Positions 17,267 through 51,594 of a stretch of 64,000 bases of DNA are shown here, piece by piece. The notes under the pieces were generated by a model. It did no database searches and had not been told where the DNA came from. It saw only the letters and a list, made by a program, of their open reading frames with translations. Made by a program: the position numbers and the translations under genes. The DNA is from Anaerovibrio slackiae (GTDB lineage Bacteria; Bacillota; Negativicutes; Selenomonadales; Selenomonadaceae): NCBI RefSeq assembly GCF_009695585.1, contig NZ_VUNR01000005.1, positions 107,251 through 171,250 on the forward strand. Reading direction: 5' to 3'. Every line of letters starts with the position of its first letter. Positions within the stretch are counted from its first letter, which is position 1.

Positions 17267-17354
17267 GGAGCCATGGCAGAGTGGTTTATTGCAGCGGTCT
17301 CTAAAACCGATGATGTTCACGCATCCGTAGGTTCAAATCCTACTGGCTCCGCCA
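17267..17354 (+). tRNA. amber suppressor tRNA, serine-type, anticodon CUA
   Basis: 88 nt with encoded CCA. Acceptor GGAGCCA pairs with TGGCTCC; discriminator G at 17351. The anticodon loop CTCTAAA (17299-17305) gives anticodon CTA at 17301-17303. A long variable arm (17311-17326) can pair GATG with CATC, making it a class II tRNA; the T stem GTAGG/CCTAC is perfect. The D arm and the GGT/ACC anticodon stem resemble bacterial tRNA-Ser(UGA), and G73 fits serine rather than leucine or tyrosine (A73). SerRS recognises the variable arm, not the anticodon, so serine charging is expected. There is one G-A mismatch at the end of the anticodon stem. It would decode the in-frame UAG codons of the late genes. 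Confidence 0.88.
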
Positions 17355-17515
17355 TAAGAACAATAAGCTGCCATGCATCCCCATTGTCCGGGGAACCGCA
17401 AGCGCAGTACTAAAGCATAAGAGGGCATGTGAGTCATGAATCACGAATGGTAATCCATTCAGAGTATGGGTTGCAAAACGGCTACATGAGGTTCGCCCTT
17501 ACTCATGTATCACAT

Positions 17516-17590
17516 GGTTCGTTAGCTTAGTTGGTAGAGCATCTGACTTTTAATCAGAAGACCTGGGTTCAAATCCTAGACGAGCCACCA
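17516..17590 (+). tRNA. tRNA-Lys (UUU)
   Basis: 75 nt with encoded CCA. Acceptor GGTTCGT/ACGAGCC (one T-G pair), a standard D arm, anticodon stem TCTGA/TCAGA with loop CTTTTAA (anticodon TTT), T arm CTGGG/CCTAG-like with TTCAAAT loop, discriminator A. It lies about 160 bases after the amber tRNA. It would supplement decoding of AAA/AAG, which are frequent in the tail genes. Confidence 0.9.
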
Positions 17591-17614
17591 TAAACATGCA
17601 AAAGGAGAATGACT

Positions 17615-17911
17615 ATGATTAATGCAAATGATTCTGTAAAACTCACTGGTTCTGTTGCCAGCACTGGCACCGGCTCCTTTACCGTGTCCGTAACCGAGTT
17701 TTTCGTTGATGGGGCATGGCACAAGCTGGAAACCCCTCGTGAGCTTGAGATTAACACGAGTGACTACACGAATGACTTTACATCCCTGGAGCTCAAGTAC
17801 ATCAAGGAGAAGGCTGAGGCTGACAGCAAGTCTTCCACGCTCTGCGAAGATGACCTTGAGATTGTGAATTCCATTGTGAAGAAGTTTTCTTCCGCGGCTA
17901 CTGACGCATGA
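17615..17911 (+). CDS. small hypothetical protein
   Basis: 98 residues: an N-terminal beta-rich half (VKLTGSVASTGTGSFTVSVT) and a helical C-terminus. ATG 17615 has AAAGGAG seven bases upstream. It begins 25 bases after tRNA-Lys and overlaps the next small gene (ATGA). No in-frame TAG. No family recognised. Confidence 0.6.
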   Translation: MINANDSVKLTGSVASTGTGSFTVSVTEFFVDGAWHKLETPRELEINTSDYTNDFTSLELKYIKEKAEADSKSSTLCEDDLEIVNSIVKKFSSAATDA

Positions 17912-18036
17912 GCATGGAAGAAAAGAATCGCAGACCTCGCCATGTGAAAAAGGGCAAGGATCTGCGCAGACATGTGAAGGACAGGGATGACTACAGGGCA
18001 GCCAAGAAAGAAATATTTGAGCATAGAGCACGATGA
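17908..18036 (+). CDS. small basic peptide gene
   Basis: 42 residues, very basic (MSMEEKNRRPRHVKKGKDLR...), bridging two genes with ATGA overlaps on both sides, which supports translation. Possibly a nucleic-acid-binding accessory of the HNH protein that follows. Too short for family recognition. Confidence 0.5.
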   Translation: MSMEEKNRRPRHVKKGKDLRRHVKDRDDYRAAKKEIFEHRAR

Positions 18037-18989
18037 ATGACTTGGTTACAACGATAGACGATAGAGAAGCCGTGACATCCAGCCGTGTCGTGGCAACAGC
18101 CTTTGAAAAAAGGCATGACAATGTTTTGCGAGACATAAGGGGTCTCCTCAAAATTGAGGATACCCAAGGAATGTTCTACAAGACTACATATATCAATAAG
18201 CAGAATGGACAGAAGTACACGGAGTACCTCATGAACCGCGATGGGTTTGCCATACTGGTCATGGGGTTCACGGGAGCTAAAGCCCTTGAGTGGAAAATGA
18301 AATTCCTGAATCAGTTCAACGCCATGGAATCCGTCATCAGACAGCACGGTCTCGAAGGGAAGGTGCAGAAGTCTCTTGATGCCATATCTGACCTGCGAAA
18401 GCAATTGAAGGACTCAGGCATACTGAGGGAGTACATAGCTCCCCATCATTTCTTTGACCACCTGGCAGCTCGATGGAAGGAAGCAACGCACCGTGAGCGC
18501 ATAAGGGACTTCTATGATGATATTGGTTCTTACGCTGGCGTGAATGTTCCTTATAGCAACATGATAAACATTACAGTCAAGGATTGGCTGTTGAATCATG
18601 TTGGACTCAGTACCATTGAGGAGCTTGTGATTGGGCTGGAAACACATACGATTACATATTCTAACCGAGGCAAGCCAGTGTCAAAGCATGGTGTCTTCGG
18701 GAACAAAACTGAATGGACAAAGATTGTTAATGAGTTCGGCGGTCGATGTGCTTATTGCGGAGCTGAGGGAACGCCATTGATTGCCGAACATATCATTTCA
18801 CAATCCGCGCTGTCCAAAGACCACCCTGAGAAAGTTGACTTGATAGGAAACATTATTCCTGCCTGTCAGCAATGCAACCGATAGAAATACACGACCGACT
18901 TTGAGAAATGGTTCCCAAAGCAGCCATTCTACTCAAAGGCACGGCACAAGAAGATAATAGAACACATGGAGAAGTATGAGGTGAAGTGA
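18033..18989 (+). CDS. Rha-domain / HNH endonuclease fusion (one in-frame TAG)
   Basis: 318 residues when TAG at 18882-18884 is read. Residues 1-110 are a Rha (pRha) regulatory domain (TSSRVVATAFEKRHDNVLRD; YLMNRDGFAILVMGFTGAKA). The C-terminus is an HNH nuclease: CAYCGAEGTPLIAEHIISQS, then NIIPACQQCNR followed by TAG and KY. HNH proteins normally have CN-x-S-K here, so TAG sits where serine is expected. HNH enzymes beside terL assist genome cleavage in many siphophages; a Rha domain fused to one is unusual. Stopping at TAG would remove the last 35 residues. Confidence 0.75.
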
Positions 18990-18990
18990 A

Positions 18991-20613
18991 TTGGCAGAGA
19001 ACATCATGAGAGAAATCTTTGGCAACAAGCTTCGCAGGGATGCAGAAGTCGGCTCCATGAAAGACAAGTGCGCCCATGACTTCAAGCTGTTCTGCGAGTA
19101 TTATCTGGCGGATAGCTTTGGATAGCCCTGGAGCCACAAGTTCCATGACTGGCTGATTGACAAGCTGGTGAGCATAACCTTTGACCATAGGGATGATGAA
19201 ACGAGAACAGTGGTAGCATCGCCTCGTGGTCATGCAAAGTCAACACTCATATCCTTTGGGTATGTACTTTGGCTGATAGTGTATAACTACAAGAAGTTCA
19301 TCGTTATTGTCTCGGCTACTGGCACGGTATCAAAGCAGTTCCTACTGAATATCAGGACAGCCCTTGAGACAAACCAGCGATTGCGACAGGATTTCGGTGA
19401 CCTAACCAGCGATGACCTATGGAATAACACGGAGCTTCTTACGCAGAACAAAGTGTTTGTCACTGGTCGTTCGGCAGGACAGCAGATGCGAGGACTGAAC
19501 TTTAATGGAACACGACCGGACATCGTTATCCTTGATGACTTGGAAACTCCTGAGCAGGTGGCAAGTCCTGCGCAAACACGTGACCTTGAGAAATGGTTTA
19601 ACTCAGATGTTCTTCCTATGGGCAGCATCAGTGCTGACTTCATTTACATTGGCACAGTGCTTTCATATGAAAGCCTTTTGTACCACATGCTGACCAATGC
19701 TGGCTACAGCTCATGGACACGCAAGAGGTTTCAGGCGGTAATTGAATTTTCCAGGAGCCCATTGTGGGACGAATGGGAAACCATCATTACAGACCTGGAG
19801 CGTGGCGACCATGCGTATGACGATGCGGTGGCATTTTACAATGAGCACAAGGAAGAAATGCTTGAGGGCACGGAAGTCCTCTGGCCAGACCAGCGACCTG
19901 ATATGTACAGGTATCTCATGGAACGCAGGATAGCCGATGAGGAAAGCTTTGCCAGCGAGTACATGAATGACCCACAGACCGAGAACACAAGAGTCTTTAA
20001 GACCAAGTGGCTTGAGGATAACTATTATGTCGATGCGCCTGACATTCGGGAGATGTGCATTGCCATTGACCCGGCGGTATCAGCGAAGCGCAAGAATGAC
20101 TATAGTGCCATTGTTGCTGTGGGGCGTGGCATGGATAACTACTTCTATGTACTGGAAGCCGATGTACAGAAGCGCACCCCTGATAAGATTATTGAAGATG
20201 CCAAGGAGATAATCGCTAGGTACTACAAGTACAAGCCTAGCATTGTCGTGGAGACCAATCAGATGCAAGCATTCTTTAGCAGTACCTTGAAGCGAGATAT
20301 GGTTAATGCTGGAATATACCTTGACTGGATAGAAGTCTATCGTAAGTCAGGGGACAGCAAGAGCAGTCGTATAGAGAGTCTGGTACCGCACATAAAGAAT
20401 GGTTACATAAAATTCAAGGCAAGTCAGAAGATATTGCTTTCACAGCTAAGGAATTATCCAAAGGGACATGATGATGCTCCCGACTGCTTGGAGTCAGCGT
20501 TGGCTCCGATGCTGAGTACAAACAAAACATCGTTTGGCTTCAGTAGTGCAGGGGCATCTCCGAAGCACGGTGGAACTTTTGACTTCCTCAAGAAAGCGAT
20601 AGGAATGAGGTGA
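18991..20613 (+). CDS. terL: terminase large subunit (one in-frame TAG)
   Basis: 540 residues. Walker A-like ASPRGHAKST near residue 78, Walker B IVILDDLE near residue 182, and a C-terminal RNase H-like nuclease with DPAVSAKRKNDYSAIV, VVETNQ and DDAPDCLE. It is the ATP-driven motor and nuclease that packages DNA into proheads. TTG 18991 with GAGGTG upstream is the likely start; ATG 19006 is an alternative. TAG at 19123-19125 (codon 45) precedes the ATPase, so without amber decoding no working terminase is made from these starts. It abuts the HNH gene by one base. Confidence 0.9.
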
Positions 20614-24024: not shown

Positions 24025-24210
24025 ATGGCAAGAACTACTAAGGCAACCACTAAGGTTGCAGAAAAGGAAAACATCGTTACTCAGGAGTATGAACTGCTTG
24101 AGCAGTACAAGGACTTCACGCACATCATGGTGAATGGTACACTTGTCCCTGTCCATGGTGGCAAGGTTATCCTGGGTAATCCTGATATGGCAAAAGGATT
24201 ATTGAAATGA
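24025..24210 (+). CDS. small head-tail region protein
   Basis: 61 residues, basic N-terminus (MARTTKATTKVAEKENIV), then a small beta domain with HIMVNGTLVPVHGGKVIL. Proteins of this size and place (after the capsid, before the connector) are often head decoration or head-tail joining factors; not proven. ATG 24025 follows GAAGGAG; ATGA overlap with the next gene. Confidence 0.6.
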   Translation: MARTTKATTKVAEKENIVTQEYELLEQYKDFTHIMVNGTLVPVHGGKVILGNPDMAKGLLK

Positions 24211-24767
24211 GTTACATAAAGGAAAGCGAGATACCAATCTACTGCGGTCTTGTCCGTGGCGTGACCATGGAGCATGTGGAAGCAGCGACAACTTTGATTG
24301 ATGCGTACAAAGGTACTAGCTTTCTCCCGGTTCAGCATGTGGAGCGTGTGGAGCTGAAGCAACGCCGTGGGGAATACCGTGGCAAGCTTAATCATTTCCC
24401 TCGCATCTGCATTGATAAAATCACAGCCAAGGCTCGCAGTATTTTCGGTGAACAGAAATTGGAACTCCCGGTGGATTGCATCGACTTTGACGATGACCTT
24501 TCGTTGTACTTCACGTTTACCATGCCTCGTGAGCTGATGTTCAGGCAGGTTCCATAGAACATAAACATTGTTTATCACAGTGGCTACAATGTAATCCCTG
24601 AACAGCTCAAGAGGGCGTGTGGCATCCTTGCTTGCAATATCAAGCAGATGGGCGGTGTCATGCGGTGGAAGCAACGTGATGACTACGACATAAAGGTTAC
24701 TCTGTCAGACGAAGGCGTGTTCACAGAAGAAATAAAGGTTATGCTTAGAGGAGTTGAGATACGATGA
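24207..24767 (+). CDS. head-tail connector/adaptor-like protein (one in-frame TAG)
   Basis: 186 residues across TAG 24555-24557. The C-terminal part, NINIVYHSGYNVIPEQLKRA followed by CGILACNIKQMGG, matches the adaptor family (V-x-Y-x-x-G-Y-x-x-I-P-x-x-L-K-x-A). The TAG follows FRQVP and precedes this signature, so termination there would lose the diagnostic half. ATGA overlaps on both sides show operon translation. Confidence 0.65.
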
Positions 24768-25339
24768 GCAGTGTACTTGAATTTTACTCAGATAGACTTG
24801 AGCGATTACAGTGTGAGCGTGGCTTCATCGAGGAAGGGCTCATGCTGCGCAGAGGTAAAACTCAGAACCCATACACAATCTCTGACCACAAGAACGTCAT
24901 TGTTCCTCTTGGGACGAAGATTGCAAATGGCGACCTCATAAAACGCATCGACCATGAGTTGCAAGACCAGTTTATCATCGTTGCAAAGCAGATTGGAGCT
25001 GACTGCGTATCCATGCAGGGCAAGCGTATCAATTCCTTTATTGATATTTACCAGATTAGCAACAAGCTGGATGACCATCATCGCAAGGTTGGCTTGAAGG
25101 AAGAGCTTGTTCTCAAGAATGTTCCTTCGTACTGCGAAGACCAATCAGCATACAATCAGTTCTATGATGCCGGTTATCTTCCAAAGGTTGTAAAGAAATT
25201 CTTTGTGCAGCCTGACGACAGAATAAAGGATATGCAGCGCATCAAGAGTGAAGATGGTGTATTCCAAATTGACGGTATCACCAAAGAAAAATACCGTGAT
25301 GTTTGGGTAATACAGGTTTCGGAGGATGCCAGGAAATGA
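24764..25339 (+). CDS. head-closure region hypothetical protein
   Basis: 191 residues, mixed alpha/beta, ending in a strand-rich domain (YRDVWVIQVSEDARK). Its place between the connector and the gp10-like gene suggests a head-closure or neck protein, but no family is recognised. ATGA overlaps both neighbours. No TAG codons. Confidence 0.55.
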   Translation: MSSVLEFYSDRLERLQCERGFIEEGLMLRRGKTQNPYTISDHKNVIVPLGTKIANGDLIKRIDHELQDQFIIVAKQIGADCVSMQGKRINSFIDIYQISNKLDDHHRKVGLKEELVLKNVPSYCEDQSAYNQFYDAGYLPKVVKKFFVQPDDRIKDMQRIKSEDGVFQIDGITKEKYRDVWVIQVSEDARK

Positions 25340-26205
25340 ATGAGAGGCTTTAGAAAAGAATGGAGAGATGCCTTCGCAAGTTTGCCCGTGCAAAGAAGAA
25401 GGAATTTTACCATAAGATGAACAAGACCGCAAAGCAGTACAAGAAAGATCGTGGTGAAATTCATTTTGAATCAGAGGTTTCTTCCACTATGGGTAAGGCA
25501 AAGTTATCATTAGCTGCCTATGGTCAGAGAGTATGGACATTCGAGTATGGCAAGGGTAAAGGCACTGGCACATTCGAGAAAACGAATTATACTTTACCAA
25601 CATCGTTCCATAAGACAAAAATATTCAGGCAATACACTGGTAATCCTGCGAGAAACCCAATGCGAAAAGTTTACCAGCTATATGCCAATAGGCCTTCTAA
25701 GCGTAAAAACAAAATCACTGTTAGACGCAAGAGGGGGGATGTTGTTCAGGAATACGAAATGAGCTATCCAAAGCTTATCAGTACACCGATTAAGAGCAAT
25801 CGTGTAATGGATAAGAATGGGCTCATGAGGCTCATGACGAAGAAAGAACAACTTGCCGAAAGCAACATTGGCTGGAGACAGCAAATCATAGGATTGTTTA
25901 CGATTTACTCTCGACCGGGTACTTACACCGACCTCGATGGTAAATAGCATACATCCGATGCTAAAGCTGTGTTCGACTTAGAAAAACCTAATAAGCATGG
26001 GGTACTAAAGAGGCCCAAGCTCTCTCATCCAGGTAGAGCCTATGTTACCAACTTGTTTGAATATGACTTTGTGCGAGAGAAGCCTCGGATATTCCCCGAC
26101 AGGTCTAAAGCTCCTGATTGGACATTGCATGGCTTCTGCAAGCAAGCTAACGAGGAGATAAAGGAATACGCTGAAAACGTGTTTGAGGAATTAGGATTTA
26201 AATGA
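25336..26205 (+). CDS. neck/tail completion protein candidate (two in-frame TAG)
   Basis: 289 residues from ATG 25336 to TGA 26205, reading TAG at 25351-25353 (codon 6) and 25945-25947. The start overlaps the previous stop (ATGA), exactly as at neighbouring junctions, which supports it over internal ATGs. Basic protein: RAKKKEFYHKMNKTAKQYKK, then NRPSKRKNKITVRRKRGD. The C-terminus (ANEEIKEYAENVFEELGFK) resembles the end of HK97 gp10-like proteins. Two apparent separate reading frames are one gene. Confidence 0.6.
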
Positions 26206-26614: not shown

Positions 26615-27385
26615 ATGGCTAACGTAGCAAACATTTTGAACACCCCAGTATTGCTCCATGGTATCGGTAAGGGCGTACTCAAGACCGTATAGGGCAAGAT
26701 TCTTGAGTTCACCACTGCTCAGTCCATGAAGCTGAATGTTACCACCTCCTCCGAGGATGTATACGGTGGTGACTCCCTGTTCCCTCTGTACACCTACCTG
26801 ACTCAGAAGGAAGGCACCGTTGAGATTACCAACGCTGACTTCAAGCTTTCCCAGGTTGATATTGCACAGGGTACCAAGACCAGCACTACTGGCAACAAGC
26901 GCAACTACATGGTAAAGATTACCAAGGACAGCTCCAAGCTGACCGATGATTCCGTTCCTGTAACTGGTGTTGAGGTTATTGCGATGGTAGGTCCTGATGG
27001 TAAGAGCGTACCTGTAGCAACCGATGCTGGCGATGATGTTGTTGCAATTTCCGCTACCGGTGCGATTACCGTTGGCACTAACGTAACTCTGGATGAGGGC
27101 GAGTACAACGTATGGTTCCGTGCTGACAGCTCCGCATCCGTGGCAGCTGAGATGCTGAAGAACGCTATGCCAGAGGTATCCGAGTTCACTTGGATGTTCA
27201 CCACCGAGGATGCAGATGGCAACAAGTATCAGATTGACATCTATGCCCGTCGTGTCCGTGCAAACGGTGAGCTGGCTATTGAGACCGCACGTGATTCCGC
27301 AAGCACTCCTACCTTGACTGTCAAGATTCTTGACCCAGGCGATGGCAGGGATGACTTTGCAACCATTACTATCACTAAGCTGTGA
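26615..27385 (+). CDS. tail tube (major tail) protein (one in-frame TAG)
   Basis: 256 residues across TAG 26690-26692 (codon 26: KGVLKTV-TAG-GKILEFTT). Optimised codons, Thr/Val-rich beta structure and position before the tail chaperones identify the tube protein. A C-terminal Ig-like section is plausible (VTGVEVIAMVGPDGKSVPVA). The ATG at 26615 has AAGGATG upstream. Its own strong terminator follows, as expected for an abundant structural protein. Production depends on amber decoding unless a downstream start is used. Confidence 0.8.
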
Positions 27386-27672: not shown

Positions 27673-27951
27673 ATGAAGAAAATATTATTGATGGTAATAA
27701 TGTTACTGAGCTTTAATGGCGTATGCAGTGCAAGCGATGGGAATAACATTGGCGTGGACAGGTTTGCCCACTTTGGCATTTAGTATGTCATTTGCGACCA
27801 GTTGCATCGCAATGCTGGCATGAATAAGTTCTGGGCTGGCGTGACCACGCTGGCTATCGGCGCAGCTAAGGAAGCCTTTGTGGATGACCACTGGGATGGC
27901 GGTGACTTTGCAGCTGATTGCGCCGGTACATTTCTTTGCGTAACATTTTAA
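27673..27951 (+). CDS. exported YfiM-like protein, possible moron (one in-frame TAG)
   Basis: 92 residues. N-terminal signal peptide (MKKILLMVIMLLSFNGVCSA), then VDRFAHFGI-TAG-YVICDQL and a Gly/Ala-rich segment NKFWAGVTTLAIGAAKEAFV with VDDHWDGGDFAAD, the pattern of YfiM/DUF2279-type envelope proteins. TAG at 27781-27783 replaces a residue that is often Ser in related HFG-x-SY segments (from memory). It sits between tail tube and tail chaperones, where a signal peptide is unexpected; it may alter the envelope of infected cells. GGAGGG precedes ATG 27673. Confidence 0.6.
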
Positions 27952-28331: not shown

Positions 28332-28543
28332 AGGAAAAGACTGAATGGAGAAACCTATTTGCCTCCATTGTCCAGAACACTAGCATGACAATGGAGGATA
28401 TAGGCAATCTCCGAATCAATCAGATGGAAGATTTATTGGAAGGTATGAATGAGAATGCGGAAGCATTGGAACGCGAGATGAAGGGCGAGGTAAAGCCACT
28501 GGAAGGCGATGCTGCCATTAGAAAACTTATGGGAGGGATGTAA
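27966..28543 (+). CDS. tail assembly chaperone frameshift fusion (gpGT-like)
   Basis: About 192 residues: the first 119 codons of the gpG-like gene, a -1 shift at 28314-28322, then 73 codons beginning SDVKEKTEWRNLFASIVQ and ending LEGDAAIRKLMGGM. The second frame has no start codon of its own near its beginning, which supports frameshifting. Both products would bind the tape measure during tail assembly. The fusion ends one base before the tape measure start. Confidence 0.75.
28314..28322 (+). promoter_or_regulatory. programmed -1 ribosomal frameshift site
   Basis: A run of nine A read as three Lys codons, then GCG ATG TAA in frame 0. Slipping back one base gives AGC GAT GTA AAG and a continuous frame to TAA at 28541-28543. 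This is the arrangement of the conserved G/GT tail chaperone frameshift of siphophages. Confidence 0.8.
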
Positions 28544-28544
28544 T

Positions 28545-40009: not shown

Positions 40010-40019
40010 GGAGGAAAAT

Positions 40020-40448: not shown

Positions 40449-40518
40449 GAAACGCCGTGGTGGCTGCAAGTGATTCGGGGGAGCTTCCATGCTCCCTCAG
40501 TAAGGAGGCATGAAAAAT

Positions 40519-40878
40519 ATGGAAACACTAAAGTTAATCCCAAGAGGTGATGTGACCAAGGCATACGACTATGGGAACAATGTTGTATAGTTTGAGAATG
40601 GCTTGCAACAGGTTCAGAGGAAATATGTGACTCCTCGCCTTACCTTGTCCATCCACGTCGAGGGTGACAAAGATATGAAGGAATACCTGGAGGAATTCAT
40701 CAATGCCAGGCATGGCAACTATGAAGCTTTCTATTGGACATACGAAGGGCACACCGATGTTTACCGTTTTGGCGAGAGTTCCATACAGTTCACGGAAATA
40801 CGTGGCTACGAGGGCGAGGGGACTGTGGGCTACAAGGCTGACATAAGCCTCCAGAGATGCAAGGAGCGTGAGTATTAA
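40519..40878 (+). CDS. minor tail protein (one in-frame TAG)
   Basis: 119 residues across TAG 40588-40590 (GNNVV-TAG-FENG). The body, VTPRLTLSIHVEGDKDMKEY, then HGNYEAFYWTYEGHTDVYRF, is that of small tail-tip assembly proteins (lambda M/L- or DUF2460-like). ATG 40519 has AGGAGG ten bases upstream; a closer ATG at 40510 is too near the site. Stop overlaps the next start. Confidence 0.65.
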
Positions 40879-41672
40879 TGGTACAGCTACCGGTATGCAT
40901 GAATGAAATGAAGGACAAGGGCAATACCTTTTTTATTGAATTGTATACAATTGCACTTCGCACTGGTACAATTCATCTCGCTGCTTGCGATGAGGACATC
41001 GTATTCGATGGAGTGCGTTATATCGCAGTTCCTATCCAGCGAGAGTCCGTGACACGCTCCATGGACAACATTACAGACAGCTGCCAGCTCACGATAAGCG
41101 ATGTTGACTATTAGCTCCTCGCTTATGTGGTGAATGGCTTTGACTTCCGCGGTGCCATGGCTACCGTGGTACGCATACAGTATCCTGAGAGCCTCAATGA
41201 CCCGAAGATATATGAATGGATATACGCTGGGACAATTGACGAGCCATCATTTGCCGAGGGAACCTTCAGCTGTAAATTGCAGACCGTGTTCCCACAGGTG
41301 CAGTGTCCTAACCGTGGATACCAATTGGCTTGCAATAGCGAGTTCGGTGATGCCGAGTGTGGTTACAGACCAGCAACTGTGTCCGCTGTGGTCACGGGTG
41401 TCAATGGAAACATATTGTATGTGAACATGAATTTCAATAGCAACTATTGGAAGAACGGAGTAATCACGATTGCGGGGGAGTCCAGGATAATCGAAACGAA
41501 TGCAGGGAACTCCCTTTAGATAAACGTGAATTTTCTTCAGGATAACATTGTAGGCAAGGTTGCAACGCTAAAACAGGGATGCGATAAATCCCATGAGCGT
41601 TGCGCATATTATGGGAACACCATTCATTACGGTGGCTTCCCTGCGATACCGTTTGAATCAGTATGGAGGTGA
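40878..41672 (+). CDS. tail-tip protein, DUF2163/BR0599-like (two in-frame TAG)
   Basis: 264 residues across TAG 41112-41114 and 41517-41519. N-terminal part matches the DUF2163 pattern (TIHLAACDEDIVFDGVRYIA), middle has VQCPNRGYQLACNSEFGDAE, and the C-terminus ends in GCDKSHERCAYYGNTIHYGG, the Cys-rich signature of tail-tip L-like proteins. The TAA of the preceding gene overlaps its ATG. It probably contributes to the distal tail complex with the NlpC and hub proteins. Confidence 0.7.
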
Positions 41673-41676
41673 TTGG

Positions 41677-44600
41677 ATGCAAGGATATAACGTATTAAGC
41701 GATGAGAAGCATCGTGAAGTAATGTTTAACTTTGACCTCCAGTTGTTCGGCGGTGGAGGCGGAGGCAAGGGCGGAGGAAAACTCTTTGGTGTACTTGCTT
41801 TCGCTGCACTTGGATGGTTTTGCCCGGCAGCATTTGGGTTTGCTGCGTAGGCTCACTTTGGCGCAGCAGTCATGGGCGCAGCATTGTTTTCCAGCGTATG
41901 GACTGCAACCCATCGCCAGGACAGCTATAACTATGACGGCGCATCTGACATACAGAGGTTCGAGCGTTCCCAGGAAACCATGACCTCCGACGGAGACCTG
42001 CCTGTTGTCTACGGTCGCCGACAGATTTCAGGCAACCAGACATATCACAAGACCAATTCTGATTCTACGACCTTATGGAAGCACGTTGTATTGTGCGAGG
42101 GTGGAATTGAGGGTATCGAGTCCGTGACAGCAAATGACCTGCTGATACCTACGGGCTCCCAGACTGGCAACACTGTATTCACCATTCAGAACGTGAAGTA
42201 CCCTGATGCGTGGGTAAAAAAGGAAGGGCATACGCTTACCCTGTATGCTAATGGAAATACCAAGTAGATTTACCTGTGCACCAAGGACGACTTGCAGAAT
42301 CCAAATGCAAGTTTTTGGGAATATCAGGTATCTATGGGCTCGCTGATTTCCTATATCAACCGCATGGGCGAAGGCTGGCAAGCGTTTCCTATATAGAGTA
42401 CCAATAAATATCCTGGGGAATTATGGGATGCATGGGGAGAGCAGGATGGTTAGTATGGATATGCGTGGTGGTTTTGGGTAGGGCCCAACGGCATACAAGT
42501 TAACAATGACCCAATCCTAAATGGTTTAAACTACCAACAGATTATGACGCTGATGAAGCTGGGGACTGGGCACACAATGGAAGCAAATGGCTGGATATAT
42601 CGTTGTGTTGGCCAGGAGATAATAAAGGTCCTTACAGGGTATAAGAAAGGCTATGCTTATGTAAATGGTAAATATCAACGAGTAGATATTCCTATATACA
42701 AAGACAGGCTTGTAAATAAAATCTATCGCTATCACAAAGGTGGAGCTAGTTGTTACAGAAGTCCTGCAAACTTCCAATGCTCCACGGTAACAGGCGGCAC
42801 ATCGTATACATTCCATGACTGCACGCCTCCGTAGAATTACAACGAGGTCGGTGGCTATCCTAATATGGCATGGCTGGACATGACCTTCACGATTTCAAAT
42901 GAGCTGAATGGTAATCCAAGCGTATCCTGCCTGGTCAAGGGGCGCAAGGTATACGACATAAGAACAGGCATAACCGCGTACTCCACGAATCCTGCATTGT
43001 GCCTCCGTGATTTCCTGTTGTCCAAGCGGTATGGCTTAGGCAAATGGTTCACTGCGGACATGCTCGACACGGACTCATGGATAGAAGCAGCGGACTACTG
43101 TGACGAGCAGATAACATTCCTTGATGGACAGGGAGCCAAGGTCACAGCAAAGCGTTATGAGCTGAACATGGTTATCGACAGCAAGCGCACGGGACTGGAA
43201 TGGGTACAGGAGATTCTTGCGAACTTCTGTGGCTACCTCGTATACAGCGGTGGCAAGCTGAAGCTCAAGATTGAAAAGCAGACACCTGTATCATATAAGT
43301 TTACCGACGATAACTGCTTTGACCTGAAGATTTCACCGCTTGCTCTGTCGGAGACACCGAACCGCTATGAGGTGACGATAATTGACCCGTTGAATAACTG
43401 GGCAGCAGTGAAATGTATATGTGATGACTACGCAGACCAGAAGGAAAGACAGCGGATAGTAACGAAAGCTGTGAGCCTCGAAGGCGTAACATCGCAAAAC
43501 CAGGCATTACGTTTGGCAAGGTTCTATCGTGATTATAACCTTGTGTGCCCTATTCAGCTATCGTTCACTACAGGCATGCAGGGAATGCATCTGGAACCGG
43601 GCGATGTCGTAACTGTATCATACCATGGTGTGTTCAAGGATATGCCGATACGCATCAATGAGATAAAGGAAACAAACAAGGGCACTTTTGAGATAAGTGG
43701 TAGGCAGTACAACGATACGATTTATGGAGACATCCTGGGCGGTGGCATCCACTGGTATAACTATAGCACCATGCAGACACCGTTGGTCGGTGAAATCCCG
43801 GAGGTAATCAATCTGCAAGCGGTAGATGATACCTATGTACTAAAAGATGGGACGAAGAATTCCACCATAAAGCTCACATGGGAAAAGCCATCTGGTTACC
43901 AGTTTACCAGCAGTTATACGATAGATTATTCACTGGACGATGGAGCAACATGGATAGCAGCTGGAAGCACGAGGGAAACCAATTTCTCTTTCCCTGCTCG
44001 CATGTACTGGACACATCTCATCAGGGTTCGCGTTGAGAATACCGTGGGACGATTGTCAGCCGGTGAGAAAACATCTGTGTATGTAAGCGGAAAGAACAAT
44101 CCTCCATAGGATGTAGTGAATCTCAAGGCAGAACTTTTGAATCAGAGCATCCATCTTACCTGGGATGCCAACGCTGATCCTGACCTTAAAGGGTACAACG
44201 TGTACATGGGGATTAACGGATGCGAGAAATCCAGTTGTGAGCTTGTAGCCAAGGCACATTCATCGAATACCATTATTATTCCGATTGAGTCCGCGGAGGA
44301 CTACATATTCTACGTTGAAGCTGTGGACACTGCCGGGAATATATCTGAGCATGCAGCGTATGTAAATGTTCACCTGGATCCACTACCTGCGGTTACAGGG
44401 TTTTACGCTGTAAAGAATGGCGATAACATAAATTTCTATTGGGACAAGGCTGGCGATTGCAACTATGAAATCCGCTGGGGAAATTCATGGAAGACAGGGC
44501 AGCTTGTGGCTAAAGTGAATTCAAATGTGTATACGCATTTCTTTCCGCTGATAGGCACGTATTCATTTTTCATCAAGGCATATGATGGGCTTGGCTTGTA

Positions 44601-45489
44601 CAGTCGTGATGCTTCGTATGTAAGGATTACCCTGACTCCGGCGGTAACACGCAATATCATAGCTGAGTTCGATGAAAGAGCCAATGGATGGCGAGGGGCA
44701 AAAAACCTTACATACGTTGGAGATAACTGCTTAATCAAAGGAAGCAGTGCAGTGAGCGGAGAATACTATACGAATATAAGGCTGGACAAGGAAGTAGAGG
44801 CACGCAACTGGGTAGAGTTTGACATCATCAGCCTTGCCAGTGATTATACGTGGGTGACAGCGAATACCGATTGGCAGGACGGTGATTATGCATGGCTACA
44901 GACCGAAGGCAATTACCGCTGGTGCGATGCCGAGAAAGCGTGGACGGACTATGAATTTTCATGGAAGGAAAATGCTGACGAGTATCCGGTGGAAGTAAGC
45001 AATTACATTGCCCAGTACAAAGGAGTCGACGATTACCTGTACACATTCGACCTGAATGAGAATACAGATGGGGCAAAGGTGGCTACTGGCATAACCTATG
45101 CTGATGGCAAGTTCAGGCAGGGGGCCGTGATAAACAATGGCGTAACCTTGGATTATGCCGTGAATATACCAGCGGAGTTCAACCTGTCTTTCAATGCAAA
45201 GCATCATGAGATAATAGACAAGCATATTGTCTACATGACACTGGAAGGCTCTAACGGCTGGATGCGCGTAGAATACAAGGATGGCATAGTGAGTCTGCTG
45301 GATTCGGCACAGAACCGCATCGAGATACCGATGAGGAATTACGGTGAGGATGCATTGAATTTCTATATACAGCAGAAGGCTGACGAGAGAATCCTCACGG
45401 TCAACAGCATAGCAAATGGCAAAACCATGTCAGCAAGCTTACCGCTGGGACCTATGGGGACATTTACAGAAATGAGGTTGAGACCATGA
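41677..45489 (+). CDS. central tail hub / host specificity protein, gpJ-like (six in-frame TAG)
   Basis: 1270 residues across TAG at 41848, 42265, 42394, 42451, 42832 and 44107. N-terminal Gly-rich and hydrophobic segment, a tail-hub domain (DLPVVYGRRQISGNQTYHKT, WVQEILANFCGYLVYSGGKL, LEPGDVVTVSYHGVF), then fibronectin III-like domains (LNQSIHLTWDANADPDLKGY) and a C-terminal carbohydrate-binding-like section. At 44107 the context NNPP-TAG-DVVNLKA matches the PPSDV linker commonly seen before FnIII domains of gpJ proteins, favouring serine. It determines host binding and forms the tail tip. Confidence 0.8.
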
Positions 45490-45560
45490 ATGAGCAGATG
45501 GATATAAAGGAAGAAGTGGAGATACATGTTATCAGAGGAGGTAATGCAAATGAAGATTGA
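45486..45560 (+). CDS. very small peptide gene
   Basis: 24 residues (MNEQMDIKEEVEIHVIRGGN...), ATGA overlap with the hub gene and ending inside the next gene's start region, where its codons carry the AGGAGG of that gene. Possibly a coupling leader rather than a functional protein. Confidence 0.3.
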   Translation: MNEQMDIKEEVEIHVIRGGNANED

Positions 45561-45969
45561 TGGAGTCATGACAGTATAGGTTTATCACAAGGATGGCAGT
45601 GTGCGCACTGTTATTCAGCATAATATGATTGTAGCCAGCGGATACGATGCTATGTGCGATGTTATTGGTAATGGTGTAATGGCACACATGAGCAAGATTA
45701 TGGTTGGTAGTGGCACCACTGATACGAATGCTTCCATGACAGCACTTGAATCCAAGGTAGCAGAGAAGGCTGCTGTGTATGCTCACGAGCAGGGCACTCG
45801 CAGCTTTTCCTTGAGCACGGATTTCTTGGAAGGCGAGGCTGTCGGCGCACTCACTGAGGCTGGCGTGTTCAACAGTGATGATGTAATGCTTGACCGTGTA
45901 ACCTTCAAGCCATTGAACATTGATGCCGATGACCGCGTGAGCATGAAGTTTGACTTCACGTTCTCTTAA
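45550..45969 (+). CDS. tail fibre region protein (one in-frame TAG)
   Basis: 139 residues across TAG 45577-45579 (GVMTV-TAG-VYHKDGSV). Beta-rich; the segment SKIMVGSGTTDTNASMTALE resembles a family of phage proteins with a short repeated metal- or receptor-proximal beta domain that accompanies tail fibres. ATG 45550 has AGAGGAGG eight bases upstream. TAA stop. Function unknown. Confidence 0.6.
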
Positions 45970-45981
45970 TGGGTGGCAATC

Positions 45982-46983
45982 ATGGCTACGACACATAACT
46001 CTTATGAAGCCCAGTGGAAGAACGTAGGATTTACATGGGCAGAAAATGCGAGGGCGTGGGAACAGTGCCAGACGATTGACCAGTACGATGTTGTTACCGC
46101 TGAATAGATATAGGCTGATGATGGAAAACGTATTGCTATTCATAAGCATAGCCACGAAGACATGTCGGTTAGCTCGGAATTTGAAAAGAAAACTTTGTTT
46201 GCAAGAAGCCCTGCGGAGAAAATCGGATTCTACGATAAGCCTTCGTATTCATGGCTGAACAGCCCATTCAAATGGGGCGATGATACCTGGGCAGAAGCCG
46301 TGATGTACCATGACAGGGACGTGGTTTTCGATGTAAGCAAGGCTCAGAGCACGGACATAAGCGTGGATGTCGTGAATAGCAATGTGCCATCGCTACTCAA
46401 GAAGGAAGCAGTGGTAGTGCAGGAGGACGCTCGTGGCACCGTGACGTTTGTAAGGAACTTCAGCGAGAGCATAAGCATAGCCGATGAAGCATCTAAGGAT
46501 ATAGCTGTGAATAATCATGAGCCGATTGTTCTTTAGGAGGACATGCTTAACAATAGCGGGGCCGTGGTGAGCGATATTATCGTGTCCGCCACGGAAATTC
46601 CAACGATGCTCCCAGCTGGCTATGGAGACTGGCAGCCATTCGTTAGCGGTGACTACAAGTATAGAGAGGCACTGTTGAAGTGTGTAATGAAAATAGAAGG
46701 AAACACGAATACAATTGTTCTTCCAAAGTATACCGTGTTCGTAGACCTGCCTGACATTCAGGACCATGCGGTGACAAGGATTGAGTCGGCTGAAAACACA
46801 TACATTCCATTCAACCTTGATTTCTATCGTGTGCCGGAGGTGACCATTACTACCGTCGGTGGCATGGAAGTAGTGATACCGATTATTACGAAGGTTACTG
46901 AGGACGGTTTCTGGGTTGAGCTAAGAAACCTGGATAAGGAATTGTCTACAGGTACTATTTCATGGTCGGCTTTGGGATGCTAA
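45982..46983 (+). CDS. tail fibre/baseplate repeat protein (three in-frame TAG)
   Basis: 333 residues across TAG 46105-46107, 46111-46113 and 46534-46536. Contains the ESIS-x-AD type repeat seen in some phage fibre proteins: FSESISIADEASKDIAV at about residue 162, while the earlier TAE-TAG-I-TAG-ADDGKRIAI has TAG exactly at the two Ser positions of the repeat. This is internal evidence for TAG as serine. The C-terminal 120 residues are beta-rich. Probably part of the receptor-binding apparatus. Confidence 0.65.
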
Positions 46984-46996
46984 GGAGGAGTATTGA

Positions 46997-47365
46997 ATGA
47001 CAGACTATCAAATGTTTTAGCTTGTAACCAATTGGATAAACCTGATTATCATACCGTTTGCCATTTGGCTTTACCGGTATCTCTCCAATTGGAAAAAGGA
47101 AAATGCAAAGTAGGAAAACGAAAAGGAAAAGAGGCGCAGGGCACAGCAAATGGCTATCATGGCGTTGCTGAGAGACCGCATCCTGCAGAGCGGAAGGTAC
47201 TTTGTAAAACTTGGGGCTATCCCATAGGATATAAAGGTATCGTTGCTCCGCATGGGCGAGGCATATGCTGACCTTGGAGGTAACGGTGAGGGGCATAGGA
47301 TGGTAGAGCAAATCAGGGCTTTGCCAGTAGATGACCTGGTGATTGAGCATAGGAGGGATAAGTAA
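46997..47365 (+). CDS. membrane protein, conserved near tail fibre genes (three in-frame TAG)
   Basis: 122 residues across TAG 47018-47020, 47111-47113 and 47225-47227. One transmembrane segment (WINLIIIPFAIWLYRYL), then a Lys/Glu-rich helix and a conserved C-terminal domain with GRYFVKLGAIP and ADLGGNGEGHRMVEQIRALP, a family common in Bacillota phages next to tail fibres and holins. GGAGGAG precedes ATG 46997. Three ambers in 122 codons make its expression especially dependent on recoding. It may be holin-related. Confidence 0.6.
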
Positions 47366-48810
47366 TGCAGAATTATACAGAGATTTCAGAGAATCAGACA
47401 TTGAGGGATTCGAGGAGCTTGCTTCTGAATAACGATAAGACTGCAATGAGCAACAGCAGTGGCGAGAGTTTTCCAACGCAGAACCTTCAGATTGGCATGT
47501 TCTGCTATAGGACTGACGAAAAGAAACTGTATCAGCTCATGGACAACATGCCTACATGGAAGCTCGTAGTTGACATGAGTGGCGATGGGGCCAAGGTTGC
47601 TTAGGTTGATAAAGATGGCGTGAACGAGGATGCGTTGCAGGACGAGGCTGTCACTGAAAACAAAATTTTAAACAAGGCTGTTTCCACGGAAAAGCTTGCG
47701 GACGAGGCTGTCACCGGCAAAAAGGTGGACATCCTGAGCCTCAGGAGCTATATTGTTGCAGCTACTCCGCGGTACTATGCGCGCGCCGAGGTTCCGGCTG
47801 CATCAGCAAGGACTATCATTAGTATCCCGTCTGACATTTGGATAAATATCAACAATAATGGTTACGTTATTAATGGTGGAACGGATATTGACATTAACGT
47901 GAGTGACAATTGGGACAATGCAACCTATGCTACCGCATAGAATCGTAAGGGCAAGGATTTCTATATGTATGCTTGCATTGGCGACAATGGGATAAAGCTT
48001 GTGCTTTCCGCTAATAGCACTGTTCCAACTGGGTACAATGCCAACACATCTCGTAAGATTGGCGGTTTCCATTGCCTCTGCGCTAATGTTGGCTCCATCA
48101 CTGGACATACACTGTCTGGCTACGTTGCTGGTGACATTATCCCTGGCTCCGTGTGGGACCTGCTTCACAGGGCAAAGAGTGATAACGTTGGTATGGTTTA
48201 TCATGAAGGACTTGGCATATGGGCTGACATCTATGGGGCATCATGGGATGGCTCCAAGCTTACGAGCGTATACGGCGGAATCTTTGCCGACGGAGAGAGC
48301 GCAAAGAGGTTCCATGGAGAGTTGTTCGTTGAGGAGTTTGGCAAGATTGGTAAGCGTTTGATTAGCCGTGCAGAGTTCCAGGTGCTGGCAAAGGGAAGTA
48401 ATGAATGTACCAATATATCTGGTTCTGCTGACCCAGGTACTACAGGTGGGCATGTTGATACCGCTGGTCGGCGCATGATTTCTAATTTTGGTCTTGAGGA
48501 TTGCTGCGGAGCAATGTGGTCATGGACAAGTGATTTGCTTGAGAATTATCCTGGGAGCGTATGGAACTCCGCGAACTACTACTTGGATAGCTATGCTTGG
48601 CAAGAGAGGTCTGTGTATAATCCGGATATTGATTCCCAGAAGTATGGTTCCTGCTTTGGCTTGCTTCGTCGGTGTCTAGTCGGTGGCGATTGGAGCGTTG
48701 GTTCGTATTGCGGTTCCCGTGCGGCGGATTGTGACAATTTCTCGTCTGACCGCTTTGCCGCTTTCGGTGGGCGTGCGGTGTCGGAGCCGAGGGTTGTTCA
48801 TCTCGGCTAA
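47365..48810 (+). CDS. diversified tail fibre protein, DGR target, C-type lectin fold (two in-frame TAG)
   Basis: 481 residues across TAG 47602-47604 and 47938-47940. N-terminal fibre segment (FPTQNLQIGMFCYRTDEKKL), a linker of EAVT-x-x-K repeats, and a C-terminal formylglycine-generating-enzyme/C-type lectin-like domain (SRKIGGFHCLC, GDIIPGSVWDL, GAMWSWTSDLLE, then RRCLVGGDWSVGSYCGSRAA). The last about 45 codons are the variable region of a diversity-generating retroelement. The display fold and location fit a phage receptor-binding tip. The second TAG lies at the boundary to the displayed domain, so without decoding the diversified part is not made. Confidence 0.85.
48647..48785 (+). repeat. 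DGR variable region (VR)
   Basis: 139 bases at the 3' end of the target gene, aligned without gaps to 48937-49075 (constant offset 290). All 16 differences fall where the template has A; VR has G at 11 and T at 5. This is the signature of adenine-directed mutagenic retrohoming. Confidence 0.95.
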
Positions 48811-48905: not shown

Positions 48906-48936
48906 GCGATATATATTTTTTCTAGGTTCATAAGTC

Positions 48937-49075
48937 GTTCCTGCAATGGCTTGCTTCGTCGGTGTCTAGTCGGTGGCAATTGGAGCAATGGTTCGTATTG
49001 CAGTTCCCGTGCAGCGAATTGTAACAATTTCTCGTCTAACCGCAATGCCACTATCAGTGGGCGTGCAGTGTCGGA
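48937..49075 (+). repeat. DGR template repeat (TR)
   Basis: Template copy of VR, just upstream of the reverse transcriptase gene. Read in the VR frame it is rich in AAC/AAT codons (GGNWSNG, RAANCNN, SSNRN), whose adenine mutagenesis cannot give stop codons. It would be transcribed into the template RNA used by the reverse transcriptase. Confidence 0.95.
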
Positions 49076-49159
49076 TATGGGGGTACAATGGTGTCGAGCA
49101 ACCCTCAGCTGGGCTTATGAACCTTCCTGCAAAGGAAAATACACAACAGGGGAAGGAGT

Positions 49160-50221
49160 GTGGCTAGTAATGAAAATGAACGTCATAGAGCCTCCGTTAT
49201 GAAACGTCATGGCAATCTTTTTGACCTTATTGCCAGCAAGGAAAACTTATTGGTAGCATTTAATAAGGCTAAGAAGGGAAAGTCACGGCAAAGGAAGGTT
49301 AATGTGGTTGCCAGGAACTTGGATAGAATGCTTAGTGATTTGCATGAGAGCTTGGTTTCTGGTAACTACCATACCTCTCCATATAAAACGAGGACTATAT
49401 ATGAGCCAAAGGAAAGGCTTATATACATATTACCATTTTATCCAGATAGAATAGTACATCATGCAATTATGAATGTACTTGAGCCGGTCTGGAATAACTT
49501 AATGTATTACCATAGCTACGCTTGTCGTAAGGGCAAGGGGATGCACCGTGGCAGTACCTTATGTATGGCGTATGTAAAGCGATATAAATATGTGTTGAAA
49601 TGCGATGTGTCTAAATTTTATCCGAGCATTAATCATGAAGTGCTAAAGAAAATCATTAGGAAGAAAATTAAAGACGGTAGATTACTTATGCTTCTTGACG
49701 AGATTATTGATAGCACTGGCACACCAACAAATGTACCTATAGGAAACTATCTTAGTCAGTGGTTTGGCAATCTTTATCTTAATGAGCTCGATGAAATGGT
49801 CAAGCATAAGCTTGGTGTTAAATCGTATATTCGTTATAGCGATGATTTCGTATTGTTTAGCAACAACAAGTAGGAGCTGCATGAATGGGCGAGGAGAATA
49901 AGGGAGTTCCTTGCATCAAAGCTTTGCTTGCGCATGAGTAAGTGCGATGTATTTCCGGTGAGTAGAGGGGTTGACTTCCTTGGATATAGGCATTTTCCAA
50001 ATAAAATCCTGTGTCGCAAAAGGACGGTGAAGTCGTCCAAGAGGCATGTGAAGGAAACCATGCATCTTCTTAGAAGCGGACGTATATCAAAGGAGCAAGC
50101 ATTAAGCAAGTTGGCAAGTGTAGTCGGATGGATTAAGCACGCCCAGTGTCACAACCTGTATAATGCTATGGAGATAGACAGGATAAAAAAGGAAGTGTTA
50201 GAATATGAAGAAATTCAGTGA
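49160..50221 (+). CDS. DGR reverse transcriptase (one in-frame TAG)
   Basis: 353 residues across TAG 49871-49873. RT motifs in order: EPKERLIYILPFYPDRIVHH, KCDVSKFYPSINHEVLKK, SQWFGNLYLNELD and the catalytic YSDDFVLF with Asp228/Asp229; after the TAG come GVDFLGYRHFPNK and a basic thumb. TAG is codon 238, nine codons after the catalytic pair, so termination would remove the thumb. GTG 49160 with AGGGGAAGG upstream is taken as start; ATG 49199 (MKRHGNLFD) is an alternative. It sits directly after the template repeat. Confidence 0.9.
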
Positions 50222-50489
50222 TTTTGCAAAGACGGAAGCCGGGCTTGTCGGCGATAAGCTAAAGATAAGCGAGGTTATGAATAAGAAAATCGTGGTCACA
50301 GGCTATCGTATGCTTACATAGAAGCATAATAGCAGACCATTGCTGCATCTGCAGTTTGAGCTTGAGGGCAAAACGCATACCACGTTTACCAATAGCGTAG
50401 TGTTAATCCGTCAGTGCGAGACATATCAGGAGGAAATTCCATTTGAGACGATGATTGTCAAGCAGTCCAATTATTACACGTTTTCATGA
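50205..50489 (+). CDS. DGR accessory small protein (one in-frame TAG)
   Basis: 94 residues across TAG 50319-50321. Starts MKKFSDFAKTEAGLVGDKLK, then KKIVVTGYRMLT-TAG-KHN, a strand LLHLQFELEGKTHTTFTNSV and ends QSNYYTF. This OB-like small protein is found beside DGR reverse transcriptases in gut phages; relatives as I recall them have S-K/R at the TAG position. No Avd-type four-helix bundle is seen, so this may replace it. It overlaps the reverse transcriptase gene by 17 bases. Confidence 0.65.
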
Positions 50490-50502
50490 GGAGGTTGATA
50501 CC

Positions 50503-50820
50503 ATGGTAGGTTATCCGAATTTTTTGAATACAAAAGAAGATTATATTTATGTACATGATAATTTTTAGAAAGAGCAGTGGCTGCCAGATTTCCAAGCATT
50601 GCTTGATACCATGAAGGACTGGTTCTTTGACCATGTACTAGCTGATGGCGAAATTGGCATTACCGATGACACTCACAAGGCAGTAATTGAGGAAGTGGAG
50701 CTTGGTGATGATAGGGTTCAGCGTAATGTACAGTACATTCTTAAAGAGAATCCTGACTGCAAATTGCGCAGACTTGGCTTCACTATTCCGGAGGTTAAGA
50801 AATTGATGGCAGGTGAGTAA
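50503..50820 (+). CDS. conserved phage protein near lysis genes (one in-frame TAG)
   Basis: 105 residues across TAG 50566-50568. The opening MVGYPNFLNTKEDYIYVHDN followed by F-TAG-KEQWLPDF is typical of an unassigned family encoded between tail fibre and lysis genes in Bacillota phages. The acidic middle and a C-terminal helix (LGFTIPEVKKLMAG) follow. GAGGTTGATACC precedes ATG 50503. Function unknown. Confidence 0.6.
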
Positions 50821-50822
50821 TC

Positions 50823-50996
50823 ATGAAAATCAGTTTTGAAAAGGTGAACATTGCTGACATTATAATCATTATTGCCCTGTAGATTGCATTGTTTGTTGCA
50901 ATTCATAGTGGCGCAAGCGAGCTGTAGACGACCATAGCAGCAGGGCTTATAGGTTATATCGGTGGTTCTTCATCGCGTGGCAAGGAGGTAATGTGA
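50823..50996 (+). CDS. small membrane protein, holin candidate (two in-frame TAG)
   Basis: 57 residues across TAG 50880-50882 and 50925-50927. One or two hydrophobic segments (VNIADIIIIIAL then IALFVAIHSG, and TTIAAGLIGYIGGSS). Position immediately before the amidase and small size fit a holin. Termination at codon 20 would give no membrane-spanning product, so hole formation would await amber decoding. Ends in TGA. Confidence 0.55.
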
Positions 50997-50997
50997 A

Positions 50998-51594
50998 ATG
51001 AGGAATGTTACATTAAATGAATTGAAGTAGATGGCGATGAATGCCCGTGAAGCCATTTGGGACAAGGCAAGGACGGAGCCGAAGATTTATCTTCATTGGA
51101 CAGCAGGGAGATATGAAACTTGTTTTTCTGATTATCATATTAATATCACGGGCGATGGTGACATTTATGTATCCACGGAAGACCTGTCGGAAACTCTGAG
51201 CCATACTTGGCGCAGGAACTCTGGCAGCATTGGTATCGCTTTGTGCTGTGGGTATGGTGCTGGATCCACTAGTCTCGGTTCATATCCGCCGACAGCCAAG
51301 CAGATTGAGGTGATGGCACAGGTAATCCGTGTTGTTGCTGATGCGCTTTGGCTGACCATCGATAAGGTTCACGTGCTGACCCACGGGGAGGCAGCGAATA
51401 ACGAGGATGGTGACAATAGCTATCACAATCCATACGCATGGTGGAACGATAGCTATAGAGACGGTGATACCCGTGGCGACCTGGAATACCTGGGAACAAC
51501 CGAAAGTCCATGTTACAAGCCGTGGGCAACCGATGGCTCACGTGGTGGCGATGTACTGCGTGGTAAGGCTAATTGGTACAGGAATAATGGATAA
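50998..51594 (+). CDS. N-acetylmuramoyl-L-alanine amidase-like endolysin (one in-frame TAG)
   Basis: 198 residues across TAG 51028-51030 (codon 11: LNELK-TAG-MAMNAR). Amidase_2/PGRP-like features: IYLHWTAGRYE (zinc His), YHINITGDGDIY (second His region), SIGIALCCGYG, KVHVLTHGEAA (third His). It would cleave the peptide from glycan strands at lysis. The TAG lies before the domain; ATG 51031 right after it could give a shorter product, but no ribosome site precedes it. Starts two bases after the holin-like gene. Confidence 0.8.

Follow-up and report, generated by a model that had tools for sequence, protein, structure and literature searches.

The window analyzed here, a stretch of 64,000 nucleotides from Anaerovibrio slackiae (positions 107,251 to 171,250 of contig NZ_VUNR01000005.1; G000:C45:107251-171250 in a draft assembly of 3.01 Mb and 66 contigs), contains a prophage whose late genes carry 38 in-frame TAG codons and which encodes a tRNA with the anticodon CUA. 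A preliminary description of this DNA had proposed that the amber codon is read as serine and not as glutamine, and the present analysis makes it very probable that the 38 late-gene TAGs are decoded as serine by the prophage's own serine-type CUA tRNA once that tRNA is expressed. The argument is drawn from sequence comparison and has two components: the residues that homologous proteins carry at the positions of the TAG codons, and the identity of the tRNA. The homologue columns by themselves favour serine rather than prove it, and they argue strongly against glutamine; taken together with the tRNA, they make a strong case for serine.

Among the ORFs counted as genes, the TAG codons are confined to the late set. 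With TAG taken as a sense codon, the late set comprises 27 open reading frames (ORFs) between positions 17609 and 51594, which contain the 38 in-frame TAGs among 10,538 codons, spread over 19 of the 27 ORFs; the serine codon TCG occurs 41 times in the same ORFs. A hand-picked comparison set of 25 non-late phage ORFs contains no TAG in 6,743 codons (Fisher p = 8e-9 against the late set). Since the late ORFs were defined with TAG as sense, they necessarily end in TAA or TGA; the 25 comparison ORFs also end in TAA or TGA, under code 11. Treating TAG as sense raises the ORF coverage of the late region from 0.83 to 0.96, compared with 0.90 when TGA and 0.89 when TAA is treated in this way, and lengthens the longest ORF from 1,291 to 3,392 codons, and the frames of homologues continue across the TAG sites. 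Two marks of late-gene stop-codon recoding, TAG in the late set with none in the comparison ORFs and a phage-borne CUA suppressor tRNA, are found in this prophage.

The residue that corresponds to TAG was evaluated with a Codetta-like test, in which query-anchored alignment columns were built from table-11 translations of DNA loci, together with protein matches for two genes, and were scored with position weights and BLOSUM pseudocounts as log-odds for each amino acid, summed over the TAG sites. Twenty-five of the 38 sites, in 15 genes, could be tested, the other 13 being dropped for want of at least two usable homologues. The default form of the test omits the database rows P0001, P0003 and P0207-P0209, discussed below, as well as alignments with less than 28% identity, and a second form (variant B) keeps those rows; the protein rows of the two genes may still hold translations made with table 15, which a form restricted to DNA loci avoids.

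Serine is the best residue over the 25 sites, with a summed score of +10.8 bits, followed by Glu (-1.3), Ala (-5.6), Thr (-10.5), Asp (-11.1), Asn (-15.9), Lys (-16.1) and Arg (-20.4); glutamine, which was checked as the possible consensus of these columns, ranks 9th of 20 at -22.5 bits, 33 bits lower than serine. Sense codons of the same genes, used as a control, were named correctly in 61 of 61 cases. Serine scores above glutamine at 17 of the 25 sites, and weighted serine shares reach 0.61 at position 26690, 0.51 at 42832 and, over 22 homologues in an enlarged test, 0.39 at the terminase site 19123, where all four homologues covering the column in the smaller set have serine. Five sequence contexts which the preliminary description had quoted as places where serine is expected all exist: CNR-TAG-K in the HNH motif at 18882; PP-TAG-DV at 44107, where the homologue column has a serine share of 0.50; E-TAG-I-TAG-AD at 46105/46111, with ESISIAD elsewhere in the same protein; HFGI-TAG-Y at 27781, with a column of Ser 0.80 and Gly 0.20 (n=8); and T-TAG-K at 50319, in the accessory gene of a diversity-generating retroelement (DGR), with Ser 0.67 and His 0.33 (n=3).

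The ranking of serine is stable to changes in the data. Serine remains best when only DNA loci are used (23 sites; Ser +10.2, Gln -20.1), when the suspect glutamine rows are kept (Ser +10.3, Gln -10.0), and in every run of a leave-one-gene-out analysis over the 15 genes. When matched sets of 25 sense sites were drawn 2,000 times for a given amino acid, the observed Ser-Gln gap of 33.4 bits was reached in none of the draws of true Gln sites, in 375 of the Ala, 247 of the Thr and 1,928 of the Ser draws. The draws were called serine in 1,989 of 2,000 cases for true Ser, in one case for true Ala, and in 0 of 2,000 for each of Gln, Glu, Thr, Lys, Trp, Tyr, Leu and Gly. A bootstrap over sites returned serine as the best residue in 1,518 of 2,000 resamplings, Glu in 310, Ala in 105 and Gln in 2.

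The tRNA provides the second component of the argument. It lies at 17267-17354 on the forward strand, was found with the anticodon CTA by both ARAGORN and Rfam, and has an encoded CCA, G73, the pairs G1-C72, G2-C71 and G30-C40 (in the numbering of the present work) and a long variable arm, so that G73, G1-C72, G2-C71 and the long variable arm, the features by which a tRNA-Ser was judged, are all present. According to the portions of PMC9976931 that were available, serine identity resides mainly in the variable arm and is independent of the anticodon, and G73 counts as a strong determinant for the SerRS of bacteria. The G73 and the long variable arm claimed in the preliminary description are thus borne out, and kinship to tRNA-Ser is shown in addition by sequence comparison: among 19 host and phage tRNAs chosen from the 64 of the assembly, the closest to the CUA tRNA is the host Ser(UGA) at 74.7% identity, with other Ser tRNAs at 63-66%, Tyr at 64%, Trp at 61%, the two host Gln tRNAs at 56-58% and Leu at 55-59%. 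Searched as DNA against 398 genomes of the same phylum, the tRNA had matches in 22, among them the genome itself; tRNA-Ser accounts for each of the ten best foreign places, Tyr for the eleventh, and Met for some short matches to the 3' half. Phage records with a match number 509, and of the 25 listed, 18 carry a tRNA-Ser annotation and the remaining 7 carry no feature.

The best foreign match, a Ser(UGA) from another family (L232; 75.8%), has the D arm GGCAGAGTGGTT...TTGC in common with the CUA tRNA, and the host Ser(UGA) lacks it, a distribution which suggests that the tRNA gene may have been captured from elsewhere. The D arm, which the preliminary description had called serine-like, accordingly resembles Ser(UGA) of other families in the phylum and is less like the host's own Ser(UGA). 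The anticodon stem, also described as serine-like, needs the refinement that its top is a G27.A43 mismatch. In a bacterial system cited in the part of PMC13092985 that was available, a tRNA-Thr whose anticodon is CUA and which naturally has a G27-A43 mismatch decodes UAG more efficiently than a variant with five base pairs. A census of 64 tRNA genes (62 and the two in the window), all of which were typed, contains no second CUA tRNA in the draft assembly of 66 contigs, of glutamine type or otherwise. A reading of the codon as pyrrolysine was rejected: the ARAGORN label "tRNA-Pyl" matches the anticodon only, and the genome has no PylS match over the cut-off, the two weak ones scoring 27.0 and 25.3 bits against 178.15.

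Several observations weigh against serine. Glutamine scores above serine at eight of the 25 testable sites (24555, 34689, 34749, 41112, 42451, 47111, 47225 and, most strongly, 51028); serine alone comes out best at only 5 sites, Ala at 3, Gln at 2 and Glu at 1; and individual columns can be clearly of another kind, such as 42394, where Ala has a share of 0.86, and 51028 in the amidase, where Gln has 0.45. The serine score is low for sense serine codons, since only 27 of 2,000 matched Ser draws are as low, and in an earlier version of the test with 21 sites the removal of either the terminase or the tail fiber gene placed Glu ahead of Ser. Comparison with PHROG profiles, which are distant, does not discriminate between the two residues (the scores with TAG as Ser minus those with TAG as Gln sum to about -0.2 bits over the 13 matching proteins of 15 scanned) and is counted as neutral, not as support. 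With regard to the use of TAG itself, two of the 38 codons, 25351 and 51028, adjoin possible alternative starts, and ORFs of other regions which were not counted as genes, for instance 58754-59269, would contain TAG. Finally, some database proteins have glutamine at the TAG positions: P0001, the nearest homologue of the tail fiber protein, has it at two sites and starts inside the gene, as would either a code-11 fragment or a protein at a contig edge, and P0207 and P0208 have it at both sites of the DGR target protein.

The last of these observations would argue for a glutamine reading of TAG, like that of the code-15 phages, if the residues in P0001, P0207 and P0208 were encoded by CAA or CAG. 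That reading, which is highly improbable, also gains from the Gln-rich amidase column and from precedent, as the recoded phages treated in the sections available of PMC9523058, PMC10607447 and PMC7886860 use glutamine. The origin of the database residues can be judged from a control, an ORF of a code-15 Lak phage with four TAGs: the protein P0121 (label lgn), 96% identical to it, has glutamine at all four, and P0124 (label ena) starts downstream of three TAGs and has glutamine at the fourth. The pattern in P0124 may reflect a true Gln codon translated with code 11, or else a contig edge, so that glutamine in such proteins need not always be an artefact, which is a further point against serine. 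P0207 (lgn) is identical to the DGR target of the window through residue 430, save for I43V and the two TAG sites, while P0209 (lgn) is the fragment of 281 amino acids expected from code 11, with a start nine codons past a TAG. These patterns in P0121, P0207 and P0209 indicate that the collection mixes table-15 and code-11 translations, so glutamine there was treated as uninformative, and its occurrence in these homologues is best explained as table-15 translation. The glutamine reading is further opposed by the 9th rank of glutamine, 33 bits under serine, by the failure of all 2,000 matched true-Gln draws to reach the gap, and by the serine type of the sole CUA tRNA found. Neither of the two features of code 15 that were examined is found here: the TAG sites do not lie in Gln columns, with glutamine at -22.5 bits, and the suppressor is not of Gln type.

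The row P0003 has glutamine in one column that otherwise contains Ser 110 and Ala 8, and in another that is otherwise Ala in 115 of 118; it looks like a case of TAG decoded as serine in another phage and mistranslated as glutamine. The apparent table-15 translation of P0001, P0003, P0207 and P0208 is a problem of data quality for the building of profiles. Searches for DNA of a sister phage gave no match to 41000-46000 in INPHARED, and of the IMG/VR loci retrieved, record 2936390555_000003 is the sole near-identical one; in protein searches of 189 genomes of the family, TAG was found nowhere but in the window's own copy.

Slightly less probable again than decoding as glutamine is an ambiguous decoding in which most insertions are of serine and a minority of another residue, owing to near-cognate tRNAs or mischarging, or in which RF1 frequently terminates. 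The host retains its RF1 gene (prfA, with a profile match over the cut-off), the columns hold Ala, Glu, Asp and Thr besides Ser, and the G27.A43 mismatch belongs to a class of change linked with relaxed decoding in the accessible part of PMC13092985. Mixed columns are nevertheless expected if TAG accumulates at tolerant positions, and the mean column entropy is 2.16 bits at 21 TAG sites compared with 1.37 overall. That the TAGs are nonsense mutations of a decaying prophage, with the tRNA incidental, is scarcely credible, for although the prophage sits in a contig of a bacterial chromosome, long frames that align with homologues across the TAG sites are recovered by reading TAG alone as sense, the 25 comparison ORFs contain none, and a metagenomic copy of the DGR target is almost unchanged.

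Decoding of TAG as serine may extend to a second virus. A strict pattern for serine-type CUA tRNAs found two stretches in IMG/VR, this phage and 3300028805_000089 (G189; 88,717 bp), whose tRNA is 74.4% identical to that of the window and has G-C at the pair equivalent to G27.A43. Thirteen minus-strand ORFs were taken from it, among them those of an endolysin, a neck protein and a portal protein, and ten of the 13 contain 23 TAGs in all, the portal ORF none. None of the 13 matches the loci of the window phage at 1e-5; one has phrog_2729 in common with it. In five relatives (L206-L210) there is no tRNA in the stretches examined, and the aligned frames are stop-free. At the eight of the 23 sites with at least two homologues the scores are Ser +4.4, Ala +1.7, Gly +1.4 and Gln -0.6 (52 of 54 control codons right), and at the seven with at least three they are Ser +2.7, Ala +1.7 and Gln 0.0; these columns weakly support serine. 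Pooled with the 21-site version of the test on the window, 29 sites give Ser +9.8, Glu +1.0, Ala -0.1 and Gln -23.1. The terminase of G189 has no match in the 398 genomes of the window's phylum, which is uninformative. A looser tRNA pattern found four stretches: the window phage, L197, L198 and L199. The last does not look serine-type and was rejected. L197 (a 204-kb record), in which the CUA tRNA sits in a cluster with four tRNA-Ser genes, and L198 (a 130-kb record) have an identical serine-like CUA tRNA, and no clear in-frame use of TAG was found in the 7.0 and 8.6 kb examined; their tRNA is possibly an unused or nascent suppressor.

Su1/supD of E. coli is an amber suppressor of tRNA-Ser type that inserts serine at UAG, and a serine amber suppressor was reportedly the subject of a paper on serine-sRNA in 1965; unlike Su1/supD, a laboratory suppressor mutation, the prophage would have an evolved code with dedicated TAG codons. 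The main phage recodings are TAG to glutamine and TGA to tryptophan in the available portions of PMC9523058, PMC7886860, PMC10607447, PMC10879173 and PMC11210395. The code-15 crAss-like and other gut phages, as presented in the parts available of PMC9523058, PMC7886860 and PMC10607447, are alike in having TAGs in late structural genes and, in many cases, CUA suppressors, and their hosts use the standard code; here the suppressor is serine-type, the columns are Ser-like, and the phage is a temperate one of a probable Selenomonadaceae host. The 180 phage suppressor tRNAs linked with theta ribozymes that are tabulated in the text seen of PMC10879173 are likewise phage-encoded, and their predicted isotypes are Gln (69.4%), Trp (19.4%), Ile (10.0%) and Tyr (1.1%), with none predicted as Ser. 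In the green alga Scotinosphaera (PMC11687900, in part) UAG is serine and UAA still a stop, as proposed here; the present case differs from the alga in being a phage-borne code of late genes within an RF1-bearing bacterium. UAG as serine is therefore already on record for an alga, and as a phage code variant it was not found described: no TAG-to-Ser phage appears in the literature searched, which left out Borges et al. 2022 and Ivanova et al. 2014. To this extent the literature agrees with the preliminary description, which had held that known recoded phages use TAG as glutamine and that a TAG-to-Ser phage would be new or rare.

The suppressor tRNA heads the late module together with a tRNA-Lys (UUU; 17516..17590), and this tRNA and all of the late genes described next, up to the amidase, lie on the forward strand. 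The 161-nt spacer between the tRNAs (17355-17515) folds somewhat better than shuffled sequences (z = -2.06) and corresponds to no separate Rfam family; beside the two tRNAs, HDV-like ribozyme families were absent at E <= 1, and promoter- or terminator-like sites around the suppressor are not above chance. Next come a fusion of a Rha antirepressor with an HNH endonuclease (18033..18989, with TAG 18882), the terminase large subunit (phrog_38; 18991..20613, TAG 19123), a head-tail adaptor (phrog_442; 24207..24767, TAG 24555), a structural-region protein which was outside the column test (25336..26205, TAGs 25351, close to a possible alternative start, and 25945) and a virion structural protein (phrog_2729; 26615..27385, TAG 26690). 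The small protein at 27673..27951, which had been labelled YfiM-like in the preliminary description and contains HFGI-TAG-Y, has two more copies in the host assembly (G000:C5 and G000:C10), 63% and 70% identical and stop-free. By its size and position the protein of 3,392 amino acids at 28509..38687 takes the place of a tape measure, and it has seven TAGs, at 28614, 29007, 29115, 30831, 31680, 34689 and 34749.

The tail genes continue with an NlpC/P60-like protein (39999..40448, TAGs 40176 and 40323), a minor tail protein-like gene under the Pfam cut-off (40510..40878, TAG 40588), a baseplate hub or BR0599 tail assembly protein (40878..41672, TAGs 41112 and 41517) and the central tail fiber J (phrog_31; 41677..45489, TAGs 41848, 42265, 42394, 42451, 42832 and 44107). 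A phrog_5417 protein (45526..45969, TAG 45577) had no phage homologue in the search. The tail-region protein at 45973..46983 has TAGs at 46105, 46111 and 46534; the phage matches found cover none of these three sites, and one match of 27% in G159 that spans 46534 was not used. It is followed by a small protein (phrog_4105; 46997..47365, TAGs 47018, 47111 and 47225).

The DGR occupies 47365-50489. It comprises an Mtd-like target tail protein with a variable 3' end (Mtd second domain; 47365..48810, TAGs 47602 and 47938), a reverse transcriptase (phrog_1423, RVT_1; 49160..50221, TAG 49871) and a small neighbouring gene (50205..50489, TAG 50319), and a template-like repeat is visible in translation at ~48.9-49.1 kb. 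The differences between the metagenomic copy P0207 and the target protein of the window are almost confined to residues 431-466, which suggests that the DGR is active. The module closes with a small protein (50455..50820, TAG 50566) and an N-acetylmuramoyl-L-alanine amidase (50998..51594), the TAG of which, at 51028, is just upstream of a possible start at 51031.

The gene content, with an integrase, BRO/KilAC and Rha antirepressors, terminase, tail genes, reverse transcriptase and Mtd-like target, identifies the element as a tailed, temperate phage that carries a DGR. A portal match with 100% identity gives an offset that places the window, except for its last ~240 bases, in the IMG/VR record 2936390555_000003 (77,277 bp). 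The right arm encodes an RNA ligase (PF09414; 57557-58474), which might repair cleaved tRNAs; RNA ligase is found in 54.5% of theta-ribozyme-containing phage genomes in the excerpted text of PMC10879173. Within a DNA polymerase III alpha-like protein of 1,378 amino acids (59271-63407) lie a LAGLIDADG domain and a weak match to intein splicing.

The suppressor, which lies with the tRNA-Lys directly upstream of the late module, would most probably act in a lock on the late genes. During lysogeny, while the tRNA is absent, host RF1 would terminate translation at UAG and truncate the terminase, tail and lysis proteins; on induction the tRNA would compete with RF1, and full-length late proteins with serine at these positions would be made. 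The G27.A43 mismatch may help amber decoding, by analogy with the tRNA-Thr described above. The balance of evidence leans, with less assurance than for the decoding itself, towards UAG as serine being a distinct phage code of more than one origin, each time through capture of a tRNA-Ser gene and a change of its anticodon to CUA: in this phage, in the distantly related or unrelated 3300028805_000089 and possibly in the phage of P0003. Such a code would serve as a post-transcriptional lytic lock and be mistranslated as glutamine in public collections.

Because the anticodon plays no part in serine identity, a tRNA-Ser can turn into a decoder of amber codons and still be charged by its own enzyme. 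If decoding as serine is correct, then the proteins of such phages in public collections hold wrong residues and their code is filed wrongly; the recoding-aware annotation tools presented in the available part of PMC11210395 predict table 15 (TAG as glutamine) or table 4, with no serine option shown there. It would also mean a wider range of stop-codon capture in phages, and the prophage would offer a system for a direct test of the role proposed for recoding in the switch from lysogeny to lysis.

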